From NCBI RefSeq assembly GCF_030116705.1, contig NZ_JAOTIK010000001.1, positions 2,820,001 through 2,884,000 on the forward strand: 64,000 nt of DNA, read 5' to 3'. The position numbers and the translations under genes are program-made. This document shows, one piece after another, positions 54,085-58,762 of this stretch. The stretch comes from Streptomyces sp. ML-6 (lineage in GTDB: Bacteria; Actinomycetota; Actinomycetes; Streptomycetales; Streptomycetaceae). The first letter of the stretch is position 1, and every line of letters begins with the position of its first letter. Below the pieces are notes generated by a model that saw only the letters and a list, made by a program, of their open reading frames with translations, ran no database searches and was not told the DNA's origin.

Positions 54085-55497
54085 TCAGGCGGTGCCGCGC
54101 AGCCTGCGCCAGGGGGTGAAGGCGAACACGGCGCCGCCGAGCAGGATCGTCGTGCCCGCGACCAGGCCGAGGGCGCGCAGGGTGCCGTGGTCCCCGGCCC
54201 CGGTGTCGGCCAGTCCGCCGCCGGAGGTCGCGGAGCCGGTGGCCCCGGCCGAGCCCGAGGCGGCGGAGCCGGACGCGCCGCCCTCCTGGGCCGTGGTGTC
54301 GAGTTCCAGCGACGGGCTCACCGTGCCCTTGATCTTGCAGGGGATGCTGATCTTCGAGGCGCCCAGGGTGACGTCGATGGTCAGGGTGCCGGGGCTGAGC
54401 GTGGACTTGCCGGACGCGCCCGGTTTGTAGGTGCCGGTCATGTCGGGCAGGTCGACCGGCTTGCCCTGCTCCAGCGGTTCGGTGTTGGCGGGTCCGGTGA
54501 CCTTCACCGAGCCCTTGTCGGCGCCGCCCAGGGTGACGTCCATGGACGGCTTGAGCGCACCGGCCGGCAGGGCGGCCGGGCTGTCCATCACGCCCTTGGC
54601 CGTCTTGACCGTGAGCGCGTAGCTGCCGCCGCTCTTCTTGGCGTTGATCGTCACCTTGGAGGCGATGTCGGCCGGGCCGGGGGACGTACAGGTGAAGTTG
54701 GCGGAGACCTCCTTGCCCGGGAAGTCGGTCTGCCCGTCGCCCCCGCCGGAACCGGACGTGGAGCCGGAGGTGGTCCCGGACGTGGTGCCGGACGTGGTGC
54801 CTCCGGAGGCCGACGTGCTGCCGCCGGAGCCCGAGGTGGTGCCGGAGGTCGTACCGCCCGCGGTGGTGGAACCGGAGCTGGTGCCACCGGTCGTGCCACT
54901 GGTCGTACCGCTGGTCGTGCCGGAGCTGGTGCCGCCCGTGGTCGTCGAGCCGCCGTCGGTGACCTTGATGGTCGCGCCCGGCTGCACGGTCCCCTTCGGG
55001 CTGCACTTGGTGTCCGTGGAGATCGGCTTGGAGACGTTGATGTCGTACGCGTCCGGCGTCAGCGTGATCTCACCGGCCTTCTCCAGCTTCAGCGTGCCCT
55101 TCATGTCGGACAGCAGCATGTCGCTGTTCTTCGGAATCGGCGGGTTCTGCCGCGGTCCTTCCATCCGCAGGGTGCCCGTGGCCGCGCCGCCCAGCTTGAT
55201 CGTGCCGGTCGGCTTGACCGTGTCCTTGTCCAGGTCGAGCACGTCGGGGTTCTTGGAAGCGGCCCGGACCGTCTTCCACACCACCTCGACGGTGTCCCCG
55301 ACCTCGGCCTCGGCGGGCGCGGTCAGCTGCACCACGGTGGTGCCCTGCATGGCCGGCAGCCCGGAGATGGGCGGGGGTATGCACTCGGTGCTGTACGAGA
55401 TGTCGGCGGCCTCGGCCGGGGTGGCGGCCAGCAGCAGGCCCGCCCCGCCGAGCATCATCGCGACTCCCGCCGCGACCGTCCTCCGTTGCGTACTCAC
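54085..55497 (-). CDS. Sortase-anchored surface protein with two homologous ectodomains (LADTG)
   Basis: 470 residues from GTG 55497 (VSTQRRTVAAGVAMMLGG), with GAAGGGA upstream and a GTGA overlap with the preceding gene. Signal peptide to about residue 31 (TPAEAAD). Two beta-rich domains flank a Ser/Thr/Gly linker of TSGTTSG repeats (about 180-250). The second domain (SANFTCTSPGPADIASKVTI to SLELDTTAQ) is clearly homologous to the ectodomain of the 57860-58561 product. The C-terminus is a sortase signal: LADTG at 429-433, a hydrophobic helix, then RRLRGTA. LAxTG is the motif used by Streptomyces class E sortases. Function unknown. Confidence 0.88.
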   Translation of the reverse strand: MSTQRRTVAAGVAMMLGGAGLLLAATPAEAADISYSTECIPPPISGLPAMQGTTVVQLTAPAEAEVGDTVEVVWKTVRAASKNPDVLDLDKDTVKPTGTIKLGGAATGTLRMEGPRQNPPIPKNSDMLLSDMKGTLKLEKAGEITLTPDAYDINVSKPISTDTKCSPKGTVQPGATIKVTDGGSTTTGGTSSGTTSGTTSGTTGGTSSGSTTAGGTTSGTTSGSGGSTSASGGTTSGTTSGTTSGSTSGSGGGDGQTDFPGKEVSANFTCTSPGPADIASKVTINAKKSGGSYALTVKTAKGVMDSPAALPAGALKPSMDVTLGGADKGSVKVTGPANTEPLEQGKPVDLPDMTGTYKPGASGKSTLSPGTLTIDVTLGASKISIPCKIKGTVSPSLELDTTAQEGGASGSAASGSAGATGSATSGGGLADTGAGDHGTLRALGLVAGTTILLGGAVFAFTPWRRLRGTA

Positions 55498-56678
55498 GAC
55501 TGTCCCTTCGTCGTCGGTCTGTTCCCTGACGGTGCGGAATCGGGGGTGAACCACGGCAGCGCGGCCGTGGTGGCGGCCGGGTCGTCGGCGGACCCGGCCG
55601 GAGGGTTCGTGGGCGCGGCGGCCGGACGCGGACGGTGGCGGCGCCCGGCGCGGGCCGGAGCGCGCGGGGTACGGGCCGGAGCGCGCGGGGAACGGGGGCG
55701 CACCTTGTCGACGACCGCCATACCGATCCGGAACACGGCGGCCGGCACCACCAGGCACAACAGCACCCAGAAGAGCGTGACCCCCCAGGGGCGGCCGACC
55801 CCCCACGGCTGCTCGACCAGCACCTTGCCGCCGTACCTGAGCGAGATCTGGTAGTCGCCGTGGGCGCCCGCGGCCAGCTCGACCGGCAGCTCGATCCGGG
55901 CCTTGCGGCCGGAGGCGATGGTGCCGCGCCACGGCCGTTCCTCCCACTGCGGCGCGAAGACGCCGTGCGCGGTGCCGATCTCGAAGACCGGGTCCTCGAC
56001 CGGGGCGGAGCCGAGGTTGCCCACGGTGAGGACGAGGCGCCGGGCGGGCGGGGCCCCGAACCAGGTGAGGATGCCGCTGTCGCCCTCCAGCCGTGCGGTG
56101 GCGAGCACCGCGAGCCTGCCGCCCGTGCCCTCCTTCGGCAGCGGGGCGGTCGGGTGGCCCGCGACGACGAACACGGCGTCGGCGTCGGCCCGTTCGCCGG
56201 TGACGGTGGCGATGTGCACCACGCACGGGCAGGGCACGGGCGGTTCGGCGACCGGCAGCTTCTTGCGGAAGCCGCCCTCCGCGTCGGTGGTGACGGCCCG
56301 GCCGTCGGCGTTGGCGCAGGAGTTGGTGCCGCCGATCACGCCGCGGTCCGGGGTGGACCGGCCGCAGATCAGCATCATCAGCAACGTGTTCGGGCGCCAG
56401 CCTCGGCCCTTCACGGTGATCTCGCCACCCTTGCCCGCCTGCCGGGCGGAGAGCGTGACCACGGGCTTCGCATCTTTCTCCGCCGCCTTGGCTCCCAGCG
56501 TCGCCTTCGCGGACGCCACCTCGACGCCCCCCGTCGCCTTCGCGTCCGCCGCTCCGGCGCCGGTCGCGGGGAGCAGCAGGAGGGCGGGCAGAAGTACGGG
56601 CAGCAGTACGGCGAGCAGTGCCGCGGTCCGCCGCCGACCGCCTCTCCGGAGTGCCGCCGGTCCGGCCTGTCCCGTCAC
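55494..56678 (-). CDS. Membrane protein with neocarzinostatin-like domain
   Basis: 394 residues from GTG 56678 (VTGQAGPAALRRGGRRRTAA); overlaps both neighbours by GTGA. Signal peptide to about 44. An immunoglobulin-like neocarzinostatin-fold domain at about 72-175: VTLSARQAGKGGEITVKGRG, then WRPNTLLMMLICG, TTDAEGGFRKKLPV and PPVPCPCVVHIATVTGE, with cysteines at 105, 121, 150 and 152. A second beta region (LVLTVGNLGSAPVEDPVFEI) follows, one membrane helix near 300-323, and a 71-residue Arg/Pro/Ala cytoplasmic tail. Probably a structural partner in the surface cluster rather than an enediyne carrier. Confidence 0.82.
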   Translation of the reverse strand: MTGQAGPAALRRGGRRRTAALLAVLLPVLLPALLLLPATGAGAADAKATGGVEVASAKATLGAKAAEKDAKPVVTLSARQAGKGGEITVKGRGWRPNTLLMMLICGRSTPDRGVIGGTNSCANADGRAVTTDAEGGFRKKLPVAEPPVPCPCVVHIATVTGERADADAVFVVAGHPTAPLPKEGTGGRLAVLATARLEGDSGILTWFGAPPARRLVLTVGNLGSAPVEDPVFEIGTAHGVFAPQWEERPWRGTIASGRKARIELPVELAAGAHGDYQISLRYGGKVLVEQPWGVGRPWGVTLFWVLLCLVVPAAVFRIGMAVVDKVRPRSPRAPARTPRAPARAGRRHRPRPAAAPTNPPAGSADDPAATTAALPWFTPDSAPSGNRPTTKGQS

Positions 56679-57703
56679 GATTCCGCTCCCGCCTGCACCG
56701 AATGCCTCGTCCCGGAGTGCTGCTGCTGGTCCCGCGCGGCCCGCTCGCCGTCCGGCAACCGCTCGTCGCCCGTCGACCGGCCCTCGTCCGCCGGTCGGCC
56801 GCGCGGGCGCCGGCGCCGGTACGCGTACGCGCCGGTGGCGACGGCGGCCAGGAGGAACAGCGCGCCGCCGGTCAGCGGGGCCCACGGGACGAAGACCGCG
56901 CGGGCGGTCGCCTCGCCGTGCACGTCGCCCGCCGCGGTGACGCGCAGCCGGACGGTCGTCGAGTCCAGCGCGGGGGTGTCCCGCCACGGTTCGGTGAGCC
57001 CGAGGCGCTGTCCGGGCAGCAGGCGCACCGGCAGGGCGCGGGCCTCGCGCCGCAGCACCGTCCCGAACAGCCCGTCGGCCCGGACGGCGACTTCCGGGGC
57101 GAGGACCGTGTTGCCCCGGTTGACCAGCGTGTAGTGGATGGTCCGGCCGGACACGGTGACGTCCTCGACGGTGAGCGCGGCCACGGCCGGTCCGCCGATC
57201 CGCAGCCGGAGGTCCACCTCCACCGAGCGGTCGCCGCCGCGTACGACGAGCGCGCCGGAACGGTCGCCGGGCACCGCCCCGGCCGGGACCGTGACGGTGA
57301 ACGGCACGTCGGCGCGGGTGCGGGCGGGCACGGTCACCTCGGTGGCGGCGGCCCGCAGCCAGGCCCCGGGGCCGGTGCCGGGCGCGCCCCCCGTGCCCGG
57401 CCGCGGTGCGGTCGTCGCCCCGGGCCCGTCCGTGCCGCGCAGGCGCACGGTGATCGGGGAGGAGCCGGGGTTGGTGACGGAGAGCCGGTCCTGCAGAACG
57501 CTGCCGGGCGCCCCCTCCAGGTAGAAGTACGGTCTGCTGCCCTTCCCGCCCGAACCGCTCCCGGCAGGCCGCGCCGTCCACGACGCGTCCTTCGCGGGCG
57601 ACGGCGCCCGGGGAACGGCGACCGCCTCCGGGGGCACGGCGAGAGCGCACAGCAGTACGGCGAGGGCGAGTCGGACGGCGCGGCCGGTCGTCGGCGGCGG
57701 CAT
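56675..57703 (-). CDS. WxL-interacting/DUF916-like membrane-anchored surface protein
   Basis: 342 residues from ATG 57703 (MPPPTTGRAVRLALAVLLCA) with AGGGAG upstream. Signal peptide to about 29. An Ig-like domain of the WxL-protein-interacting, peptidoglycan-binding (DUF916/WxLIP) type at about 55-175: RPYFYLEGAPGSVLQDRLSV, then SSPITVRLRG, VTVPARTRADVPFTVTVPAG and DRSGALVVRG. A second beta domain (TIHYTLVNRGNTVLAPEVAV) follows, and one C-terminal helix (TGGALFLLAAVATGAYAYRR) with a basic tail. In firmicutes such proteins tether WxL surface complexes. Here they are coupled to sortase substrates. Confidence 0.85.
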   Translation of the reverse strand: MPPPTTGRAVRLALAVLLCALAVPPEAVAVPRAPSPAKDASWTARPAGSGSGGKGSRPYFYLEGAPGSVLQDRLSVTNPGSSPITVRLRGTDGPGATTAPRPGTGGAPGTGPGAWLRAAATEVTVPARTRADVPFTVTVPAGAVPGDRSGALVVRGGDRSVEVDLRLRIGGPAVAALTVEDVTVSGRTIHYTLVNRGNTVLAPEVAVRADGLFGTVLRREARALPVRLLPGQRLGLTEPWRDTPALDSTTVRLRVTAAGDVHGEATARAVFVPWAPLTGGALFLLAAVATGAYAYRRRRPRGRPADEGRSTGDERLPDGERAARDQQQHSGTRHSVQAGAES

Positions 57704-57859
57704 GGGCGGCTCCCTGGTGCGTGACGGCGGCGGCTGGGTCTCGTGGACCGCGGGCCCGGACGTACCGGCCACGGCTCCCCGGGGCGGATGGACGTACCGG
57801 TCACGGCTCCTCCGGCGCGGGCGTACCGGGCACAGGCACGGGCGTACCGGCGGAAACGC

Positions 57860-58561
57860 CTAGCGGCCCACCGCCCCCGCCTCCTGCCGCTGTCCCCGCC
57901 GGGTCAGCCAGAGCACCCCCGCCGCACCGGTCAGCAGCACCGTGCCGCCGAGCGTGCCGAGCGCCACGGCCGAGTCGAGCGGACCGGTCTTCGGCAGCTG
58001 CCCGCCGGCCGGGTCGTCGTTCCCGCCGCCGGTCGCCGTGCCGCCCCCGCCCCCGGCGGCCGTCACGTCGAGCCGGAGCGACGGGCCGGGGTTGTTGGCG
58101 GGGGTGCAGGTGGTGGTCGTGCCCAGCGCCTTGATGGTGAGCACCCCGGCGGTGAAGTCGACCTTGCCGCTCTTCTTCGGCGTGTACGTGCCCGACAAGT
58201 CGCTGATCTTGATGGGGGTGTTGGCGGGTATCGCCGCGGAGTTCGACGGGCCGGAGACCTGGACCCGGCCCGGATCGGCGCCGCCCACCTCGATCACCGC
58301 GCTGGGGTTCATCGCGCCCTTGCCCAGTTCGACGGGGCTGGACGAGACGCCCTTCTGGAAGGACATCGTGAGCCGGTAGCCGTTGCCGCTCCGGACGCTC
58401 TTGATGTCGATGGGGGACACGGCGCTCTTGTCGCCGATCGGGGTCTTGCACTTGTAGTCGACGTCCACGACCGTGGCGTGGGCGGCGGGCGCGGCCATCA
58501 GCACCACCGTGCCCGCCAGCGCGGACGCCAGCGCGAGAGCTGTTCGCTTCTGGTAGGACAC
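57860..58561 (-). CDS. Sortase-anchored surface protein with one ectodomain (LPKTG)
   Basis: 233 residues from GTG 58561 (VSYQKRTALALASALAGTVV). Signal peptide to about 29 (AAPAAHATV). A ~135-residue beta-rich domain: KGVSSSPVELGKGAMNPSAV, then GGADPGRVQVSGP, LSGTYTPKKSGKVDFTAGVL and CTPANNPGPSLRLDVT. This matches the second domain of the LADTG protein block by block. Gly/Thr-rich stalk, LPKTG at 189-193, a hydrophobic helix and a basic tail complete a sorting signal. It heads the cluster, 156 bp before the DUF916-like gene. Function unknown. Confidence 0.88.
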   Translation of the reverse strand: MSYQKRTALALASALAGTVVLMAAPAAHATVVDVDYKCKTPIGDKSAVSPIDIKSVRSGNGYRLTMSFQKGVSSSPVELGKGAMNPSAVIEVGGADPGRVQVSGPSNSAAIPANTPIKISDLSGTYTPKKSGKVDFTAGVLTIKALGTTTTCTPANNPGPSLRLDVTAAGGGGGTATGGGNDDPAGGQLPKTGPLDSAVALGTLGGTVLLTGAAGVLWLTRRGQRQEAGAVGR

Positions 58562-58646: not shown

Positions 58647-58739
58647 CCGTCGCGCGCCGCGGCGCACCGGCGCACGTTACTGACGACACATCAGATCGGC
58701 GCTCAAGGTACGCCCGGCAACTTGAGGAGGGAAGACAAA

Positions 58740-58762
58740 GAGCGCGCCGATCCGGCGCGCTC
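58740..58762 (-). terminator. Terminator of the anti-sigma ATPase gene
   Basis: Perfect 10-bp GAGCGCGCCG/CGGCGCGCTC stem with a three-base loop. On the minus strand it is followed by TTTGTCTTC. It lies 29 bp after the ATPase stop. Confidence 0.75.

Follow-up and report, generated by a model that had tools for sequence, protein, structure and literature searches.

A cluster of four consecutive genes, referred to here as G1 to G4, lies on the minus strand of a 64,000-nucleotide stretch of the Streptomyces sp. ML-6 genome (contig NZ_JAOTIK010000001.1, positions 2,820,001 to 2,884,000), which we call the window and in which the coordinates of the genes and of their upstream elements are given. 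Gene limits and start and stop codons were read directly from the sequence, which was then translated. G1 (57860..58561, GTG start, 233 amino acids) encodes a small predicted sortase substrate with a signal peptide, one two-cysteine domain, and an LPKTG sorting signal. G2 (56675..57703, ATG start, 342 amino acids, with an in-frame GTG at 57772 as an alternative start) encodes a membrane protein of the WxLIP (DUF916) family with a signal peptide, two beta-domains, and a C-terminal helix. The product of G3 (55494..56678, GTG start, 394 amino acids) has a neocarzinostatin-like domain with four invariant cysteines, followed by a second domain, a C-terminal helix, and a conserved basic tail with an LPWFTPDSAP...TKG end. 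G4 (54085..55497, GTG start, 470 amino acids) encodes a large predicted sortase substrate, in which a signal peptide, a domain D1, a Gly/Ser/Thr linker, a second domain D2, and an LADTG sorting signal follow one another.

Hydropathy places an N-terminal hydrophobic segment and a single C-terminal hydrophobic region in each of the four proteins, in agreement with the initial annotation of the locus, which had described four exported products with an N-terminal signal and one C-terminal helix. Its account of the gene order was likewise confirmed by direct reading: G2, G3, and G4 are tied together by two 4-base GTGA overlaps on the minus strand, in which the stop codon of G2 meets the start of G3 (56675..56678) and the stop codon of G3 meets the start of G4 (55494..55497), both also seen in the locus comparison, and G1 lies on the same strand with a gap of 156 bp to G2.

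Read toward G1, the upstream region holds a gene that we take to be prsI, a hairpin with a T-tract, a conserved block, and a palindrome. The flanking genes are presumed counterparts of those in the Streptomyces coelicolor locus and carry its names sigI, arsI, and prsI here. The hairpin, a perfect 10-bp stem followed by TTTGTCTT (58740..58762, minus strand), is a probable terminator, since a comparison across 74 loci found a hairpin after prsI in 42 of them against 2 of 320 random control windows; a consensus scan did not list it. A single operon with prsI was discarded because this terminator-like hairpin lies in between. The block TTTGTCTTCCCTCC...GGCGTACCTTGA (58697..58739, minus strand), which emerged from an alignment of 74 upstream regions, may act as a promoter; a scan for a sigma-70 consensus promoter found none. 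Directly downstream of it, 118 nt upstream of G1, is the conserved, operator-like palindrome ATCTGATGTGTCGTCAG (58680..58696, minus strand).

Conservation of the cluster and its protein families

A scan with the G3 alignment returned 482 relatives in named genomes, and the best 80 of the 482, all from Streptomyces, were kept. In these best 80 loci the order G1-G2-G3-G4 is consecutive, with G1 found in 75, G2 in 79, G3 in 80, and G4 in 79, and each absence coincides with a contig end. The raw G1 count of 80 had included five loci (L018, L037, L055, L067, and L081) in which the contig begins downstream of G1 and the match is the second domain of G4, and the raw G4 count of 80 had included L045, whose contig ends after G3. 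The flanks are nearly as constant, with homologues of SigI in 73 of the 80 loci, an ArsI-like protein in 73, PrsI in 74, a peptide transporter in 76, and a response regulator in 78; L047 and L053 yielded no transporter match in the interval from G4 to the response regulator, and L072 differs downstream. By profile, the flanking families comprise a SigB/F/G-type sigma factor, STAS proteins, and HATPase proteins. The 4-base overlap is retained between G3 and G4 in 76 of 79 readable loci and between G2 and G3 in 66 of 79, as scored by automated frame calling, which in L043 and L075 ran the G2 frame into the end of G3. Overlaps retained across this many loci show that the arrangement is not due to chance alone.

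Among 119 sampled genomes of the order, 81 have G2-type matches (paralogues and some weak matches included) and 70 have G1-type matches, one of them a fragment. A clear G1 is present in 69 genomes, and in 58 of them G2 lies within 1.5 kb of it, a count made from match coordinates transcribed by hand. Among the remaining 11, six have G1 and G3 only, with the G3 frame called only partly in one locus of this type (L086), and two have G1, G3, and G4; G046, G089, and G095 are not among these eight, which were read. G4 is kept without G2 in L097 and L098, G2 and G3 occur without G1 or G4 in L100, and none of the four genes lies between prsI and the transporter in L094. These loss patterns, together with the proximity of G1 and G2, indicate a set that is co-inherited but modular. 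Independent scattering of the four families, the contrary outcome named by the initial annotation, is thus not what the distances show, although the set does come apart in places. The comparison supports the existence of a real, conserved set of co-inherited surface proteins around a DUF916 protein whose partners carry predicted sortase signals.

The G2 of the window scores 21.4 bits against the WxLIP_PGBD profile, below the cut-off of 27.3, but 36 of 53 members of its family match at an E value of ≤0.01, six of the seven paralogues tested exceed the Pfam cut-off, and profile comparison gives a link of 100%. The best fold match of the G2 model, by a modest lead, is the Enterococcus faecium WxLIP (9i1y/9i25), covering residues 41-273; the model has a second beta-domain, and hydropathy and the model agree on a C-terminal helix at 274-297. 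No sequence match to DUF3324 was found in the window's G2, its family members, or the tested paralogues. In the region of the motif NQIDKxxxYFDLK the protein reads RPYFYLEG; when the paralogue profile is aligned with EfmWxLIP1, the YF-x-L part corresponds and the NQIDK part does not. PDB searches with G2-only and G3-only profiles gave no chain at an E value of ≤10; the connection of G2 to the PDB WxLIP is made by the paralogue profile. Judged by profile family and predicted fold, G2 is a WxLIP.

A similar situation holds for G3, for which the window's protein scores 16.5 bits against the neocarzinostatin profile (cut-off, 25) while 22 of 40 relatives match at an E value of ≤0.01 and 10 among 120 relatives listed carry PF00960 in precomputed annotation. 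The four cysteines are invariant across the alignment. The labels DUF916/WxLIP and neocarzinostatin given by the initial annotation are therefore borne out by the relatives, whereas the window's own proteins stay below threshold. Neocarzinostatin itself holds its chromophore in a hydrophobic cleft. An LPWFTPD-type motif in the predicted cytoplasmic tail of G3 persists in degenerate form in genomes that lack G4, which argues that it is not merely the ribosome site of G4. At the G3 C terminus of the window (55494-55600), LPWFTPDSAP and the basic tail could be a docking site for a cytoplasmic partner.

G1 and G4 each combine a signal peptide, an LPxTG or LAxTG motif, a hydrophobic segment, and a basic tail, with G1 ending in LPKTG-hydrophobic-RR and G4 in LADTG-hydrophobic-RR, as had been claimed for the partners of the DUF916-type protein. 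LPxTG is found at the end of G1 in 73 of 78 automated calls (LPKTG, 32; LPQTG, 23; LPRTG, 18), and four of the five exceptions (L018, L037, L055, and L067) are second domains of G4 where G1 is off the contig. The fifth comes from a near relative (L002:8032-8724), where the G1 frame as read has no sorting signal, through either a frameshift or an assembly error. G4 ends in LAxTG in every one of 77 calls, so that the small and the large substrate have each kept a motif of their own across loci. The ML-6 genome encodes four class E and three class F sortases, seven in all, and class E sortases of Streptomyces accept LAxTG. From these features we infer that G1 and G4 would be attached to peptidoglycan by sortase.

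Profile comparison indicates that a single two-cysteine domain is common to G1 and to D1 and D2 of G4 (26 G1 and 69 D1/D2 sequences that passed filters for length and cysteines; six G4 sequences with five cysteines and L042, L061, and L076, with unclear starts, were dropped). D1 and D2 were considered as WxL domains and rejected: no profile link above 20% leads from D1, D2, or G1 to WxL-type domains, and at an E value of ≤1 the WxL profile matches neither any of the 60 aligned G4 sequences nor the window's G1. DUF6801 was rejected as well, as neither G1 nor G4 matches it at an E value of ≤1, though the genome has a match elsewhere. PDB sequence matches to the G1 and G4 profiles were at chance level.

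Related loci and WxL domains in the order

A paralogue of G2 in the ML-6 genome lies directly upstream of era. It adjoins a gene whose product is large and exported and shares 40% identity with D1 of G4 in its N-terminal domain. In further genomes the large gene adjoins the WxLIP gene in 12 of 12 loci around such paralogues, with era within a few kilobases, and a small secreted protein, weakly similar to G1 (49.9%), is also present in 11 of the 12; it was not called in the ML-6 genome or in L124. The N-terminal domains of these large proteins form a single domain family with G1, D1, and D2. The available text of one report (PMC10582724) describes DUF916-Era fusions for some Streptomyces, which the position of the WxLIP paralogue directly upstream of era probably explains. 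In one genome (G020) the paralogue and era form one open frame (L092:5912-7777); the ML-6 equivalent is at L082:8424-10567.

Another family of the same order has, at another locus, five gene types together in seven of seven loci read (L089, L091, and L109-L113; ten genomes of that genus have a G2-type match): a class E sortase, a small LPHTG protein, a large protein with a D1-like and a WxL-type domain, a WxLIP, and a neocarzinostatin-like protein joined to the Streptomyces G3 at 99.7% by profile link. In L089 the WxLIP gene was missed by the gene caller and placed by a genome match, and the sortase was recognized by eye. Of all the evidence, this arrangement, which stands midway between the two types seen in Streptomyces, speaks most strongly for a connection among the four families.

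The WxL profile (PF13731) matches 15 of the 19 large WxLIP-linked proteins, from era-type and second-family loci, that were scanned whole. The misses are L090, both L099 proteins, and L128, and a single protein exceeds the cut-off, the GH43-ricin-lectin protein of L093 (32.5 bits versus 25). In an alignment of the WxL domain (A6; L089 and L126 left out) 20 of 20 sequences match at an E value of ≤1, the best at 3e-5; all 20 have the first W-x-L motif, and the second tryptophan is lost. No match was found in the one era-type small protein scanned (L119), and a PDB search with the profile of the WxL-type domain gave no WxL chain at an E value of ≤1. By these profile matches, the order has WxLIP-WxL sets of the small-large-WxLIP kind known from Firmicutes (PMC10599100). 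The relation to WxL complexes had been offered as an analogy with other partners, but it goes further than that: G2 is a WxLIP by family and fold and has paralogues next to WxL-domain proteins.

Other WxLIP genes of the order (L093:6120-9085, L095:7948-11077, L128:7302-10563, and L099:7698-12381) have large exported neighbors with GH43 and ricin-lectin, metallophosphatase, or HtaA domains, a pattern that would suit a WxLIP module used to display varied cargos. A separate WxL-domain match of ML-6, over the Pfam cut-off at 29.4 bits (C1:2708660, L198 region), is far from the listed WxLIP_PGBD match of that genome at 2240039.

A palindrome common to the surface genes and to catabolic genes

The palindrome recurs at the related loci. 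An exact copy of CTGAYGNNNCRTCAG lies no more than 250 bp upstream of G1 in 68 of 73 loci; allowing one mismatch raises this to 72. Upstream of the era-type genes it precedes the large one in 11 of 14 cases exactly and in 14 of 14 with one mismatch, and the small one in 0 of 11 and 10 of 11, respectively. In the second family it precedes the large gene exactly in five of seven loci (seven of seven with one mismatch) and the small gene in four of seven, with no gain from a mismatch. It is absent upstream of 218 control genes from 16 of the loci and of eight other WxLIP-linked large genes, and it was found in 1 of 61 regions upstream of G2. At most second-family sites the stem would contain a C-A mismatch on the coding strand, and for this reason a DNA operator fits better than an RNA hairpin.

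Genome-wide, the pattern TCTGAYGNNNCGTCAG gives 17 matches at 13 places in ML-6, compared to 1 for the reversed control. The strict palindrome form occurs in 36 of 41 genomes (ML-6 and 40 relatives; none for the control), and TCTGAYGNNNCRTCAG has 20 to 27 matches in each of six sampled genomes, against 0 for the control.

Most of the 12 other places in ML-6 precede coenzyme A (CoA)-linked catabolic genes, while one (L192) precedes a gene of another kind. The genes behind the sites encode acyl-CoA ligases, acyl-CoA dehydrogenases, thiolases, amidohydrolases, luciferase-like oxidoreductases, a P450, and a short-chain dehydrogenase, with names assigned by eye unless NCBIfam is stated. In NCBIfam one thiolase exceeds the cut-off for steroid 3-ketoacyl-CoA thiolase (688 versus 515 bits) and one gene that for the envelope lipid trafficking protein PgfA (324 versus 160); for this pgfA-type gene (L182:2719-3945) the palindrome is ∼200 bp upstream. 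A flavin reductase resembles HsaB below the cut-off (181 versus 230). Of eight other proteins, the thiolase-like, acyl-CoA ligase, P450, luciferase-like, and NMO-type ones have matches that stay below the equivalog cut-offs, and two have no NCBIfam match at an E value of ≤1e-10. In the second family, homologues with the palindrome include an EthD-like protein, a short-chain dehydrogenase, a luciferase-like oxidoreductase, an acyl-CoA ligase, and a thiolase-like protein, and there are also sites without such a homologue.

Repeated TCTGAYGNNNCRTCAG sites mark a CoA-linked catabolic island of ∼65 to 100 kb in ML-6 (C1, 4.51 to 4.58 Mb; L216-L220), G014 (L212-L215), and G013 (L221-L226); the G013 island is no more than ∼100 kb away from the sortase-WxL locus. 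All three islands contain a TetR-family gene, the other two proteins being 89% and 65% identical to the G014 copy, and a crude motif filter picked out no other such gene in the ML-6 and second-family islands. The TetR-family protein is a candidate for the regulator that reads the palindrome.

Proposed function and comparison with known systems

We consider it somewhat more probable than its rejection that G1 to G4 form a cell-surface complex, a sortase-anchored version of the WxL/WxLIP (csc) systems co-regulated with lipid-type catabolism. We call it a variant rather than a member of this kind, as the locus itself lacks the WxL domains that define such systems. In the proposed arrangement, the DUF916-type domain of G2 would clasp D1 (or D2 or G1) on the membrane side, as WxLIP does with WxL, and sortases would then fix G1 and G4 to the peptidoglycan in place of the WxL wall anchor, while G2 and G3 would remain in the membrane, giving an assembly that reaches from membrane to wall. 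A promoter with the palindromic operator, common to CoA-linked, steroid-like catabolic genes, would drive G1 to G4, probably under a TetR-type regulator encoded in the catabolic island, and expression of the assembly would go with the catabolism of a hydrophobic, steroid- or terpenoid-like compound. Given that the operator is common to CoA-linked catabolic genes, the complex would most likely handle a hydrophobic growth substrate or an envelope lipid at the wall; this role and the assembly are both what we infer from family relationships and operator sites. A bolder version must be called doubtful: an Actinobacterial branch of WxL-type complexes in which sortase anchoring replaced WxL at the sigI locus, the neocarzinostatin fold serves as a carrier of a hydrophobic ligand, one TetR-type regulator ties these complexes to steroid- or terpenoid-like catabolism, and a hydrophobic substrate is captured or is passed through the wall.

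Alternatively, the proteins could be a structural or adhesive scaffold of the hyphal wall, serving adhesion, aerial growth, or wall integrity under the adjoining osmotic-stress sigma locus, with the operator belonging to a general envelope-stress regulator. We regard this as unlikely, though it accounts for several observations. The cluster adjoins genes of the sigI-arsI-prsI type (names again presumed) in named loci with contigs that extend that far, and G1, with a mean column identity of 73% in an alignment of 35 sequences, is as conserved as expected for a structural protein. The partial text of two reports links the corresponding S. coelicolor locus to osmotic stress (PMC9739823) and sortase substrates of another actinomycete to morphogenesis (PMC13251363). 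However, the terminator-like hairpin parts prsI from G1, the second-family genes are located elsewhere and the gene calls shown around them include no sigI-type gene, and the operator is common mainly to catabolic enzymes. An aerial-hyphae role had been suggested for the cluster from the outset; we found nothing that points there, and the common operator points to lipid-type catabolism instead. The initial annotation is, as a whole, partly supported, and its four-gene observation is confirmed.

It is improbable that G1 and G3 are a core unit and G2 and G4 a separable WxLIP-plus-ligand unit, neighbors under one promoter and not parts of one stoichiometric complex. G1 and G3 are indeed kept in six genomes with no room for G2 or G4, and the era-type locus is a WxLIP-large-small unit where no G3-type gene was seen. 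Against this, the loci with G4 but no G2 (L097 and L098) and with G2 beside G3 (L100) imply that G2 and G4 are not an obligate pair, and G2, G3, and G4 are joined by the 4-base overlaps. Carbohydrate capture, as proposed for the Lactobacillus plantarum csc clusters, whose tie to carbohydrate use is given in the available text of PMC1534035, is very improbable here despite the GH43 and ricin-lectin domains of one WxLIP/WxL relative (L093), as no carbohydrate-binding or hydrolase domain exceeds the cut-off in G1 to G4 or in the scanned G2, G3, and G4 alignments and the other operator targets are mainly CoA-linked catabolic genes.

Our literature search on DUF916, sortase substrates, and neocarzinostatin in Streptomyces, covering mostly titles and the starts of abstracts, with preprints and most subscription papers outside its coverage, found no description of the cluster. 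Most descriptions of WxL systems come from a host-contact setting. Should the sortase-anchored complex be real, Streptomyces would have a conserved WxL-type version of its own, the neocarzinostatin-like fold would gain a role at the cell surface, and a single operator would offer a direct experimental handle on the function of a WxL-type complex.

Several known systems resemble parts of this locus. The era-type set has the same WxLIP family, D1 at the start of its large protein, and the same palindrome, but its wall contact would be expected through the WxL domain, and no sorting signal or neocarzinostatin-like gene was seen there. G3 resembles neocarzinostatin and the enediyne chromoproteins in its N-terminal profile match and its four invariant cysteines, whereas it differs from them in its predicted membrane anchor, second domain, and cytoplasmic tail, and the window's protein is below both the Pfam and the NCBIfam cut-offs. 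The LAxTG-type signal of G4, in a genome with four class E sortases, recalls class E substrates such as the long chaplins of Streptomyces; unlike these, neither G1 nor G4 matches the chaplin profile at an E value of ≤1, and G1 carries LPxTG.

The closest likeness in composition is to the csc/WxL clusters of Firmicutes, a phylum that provides over 91% of 938 WxL sequences according to the partial text of PMC9772566. In these clusters CscA is the DUF916/WxLIP protein, CscB the small and CscC the large WxL protein, and CscD a short LPxTG protein (PMC1534035, partial text). Both systems combine a single membrane protein of the WxLIP type with two surface proteins, one small and one large, all of them exported, and an LPxTG protein is often included (PMC1534035, PMC10599100, and PMC9772566, all from partial text). 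The locus in the window, by contrast, lacks a WxL domain, carries two kinds of sorting signal, one on its small and one on its large protein, has a neocarzinostatin-like fourth protein, and belongs to a Streptomyces host. The csc clusters have been linked to sugar use through catabolite-responsive element (CRE) sites (PMC1534035, partial text), and these sites are the same kind of regulatory clue as the palindrome upstream of G1.

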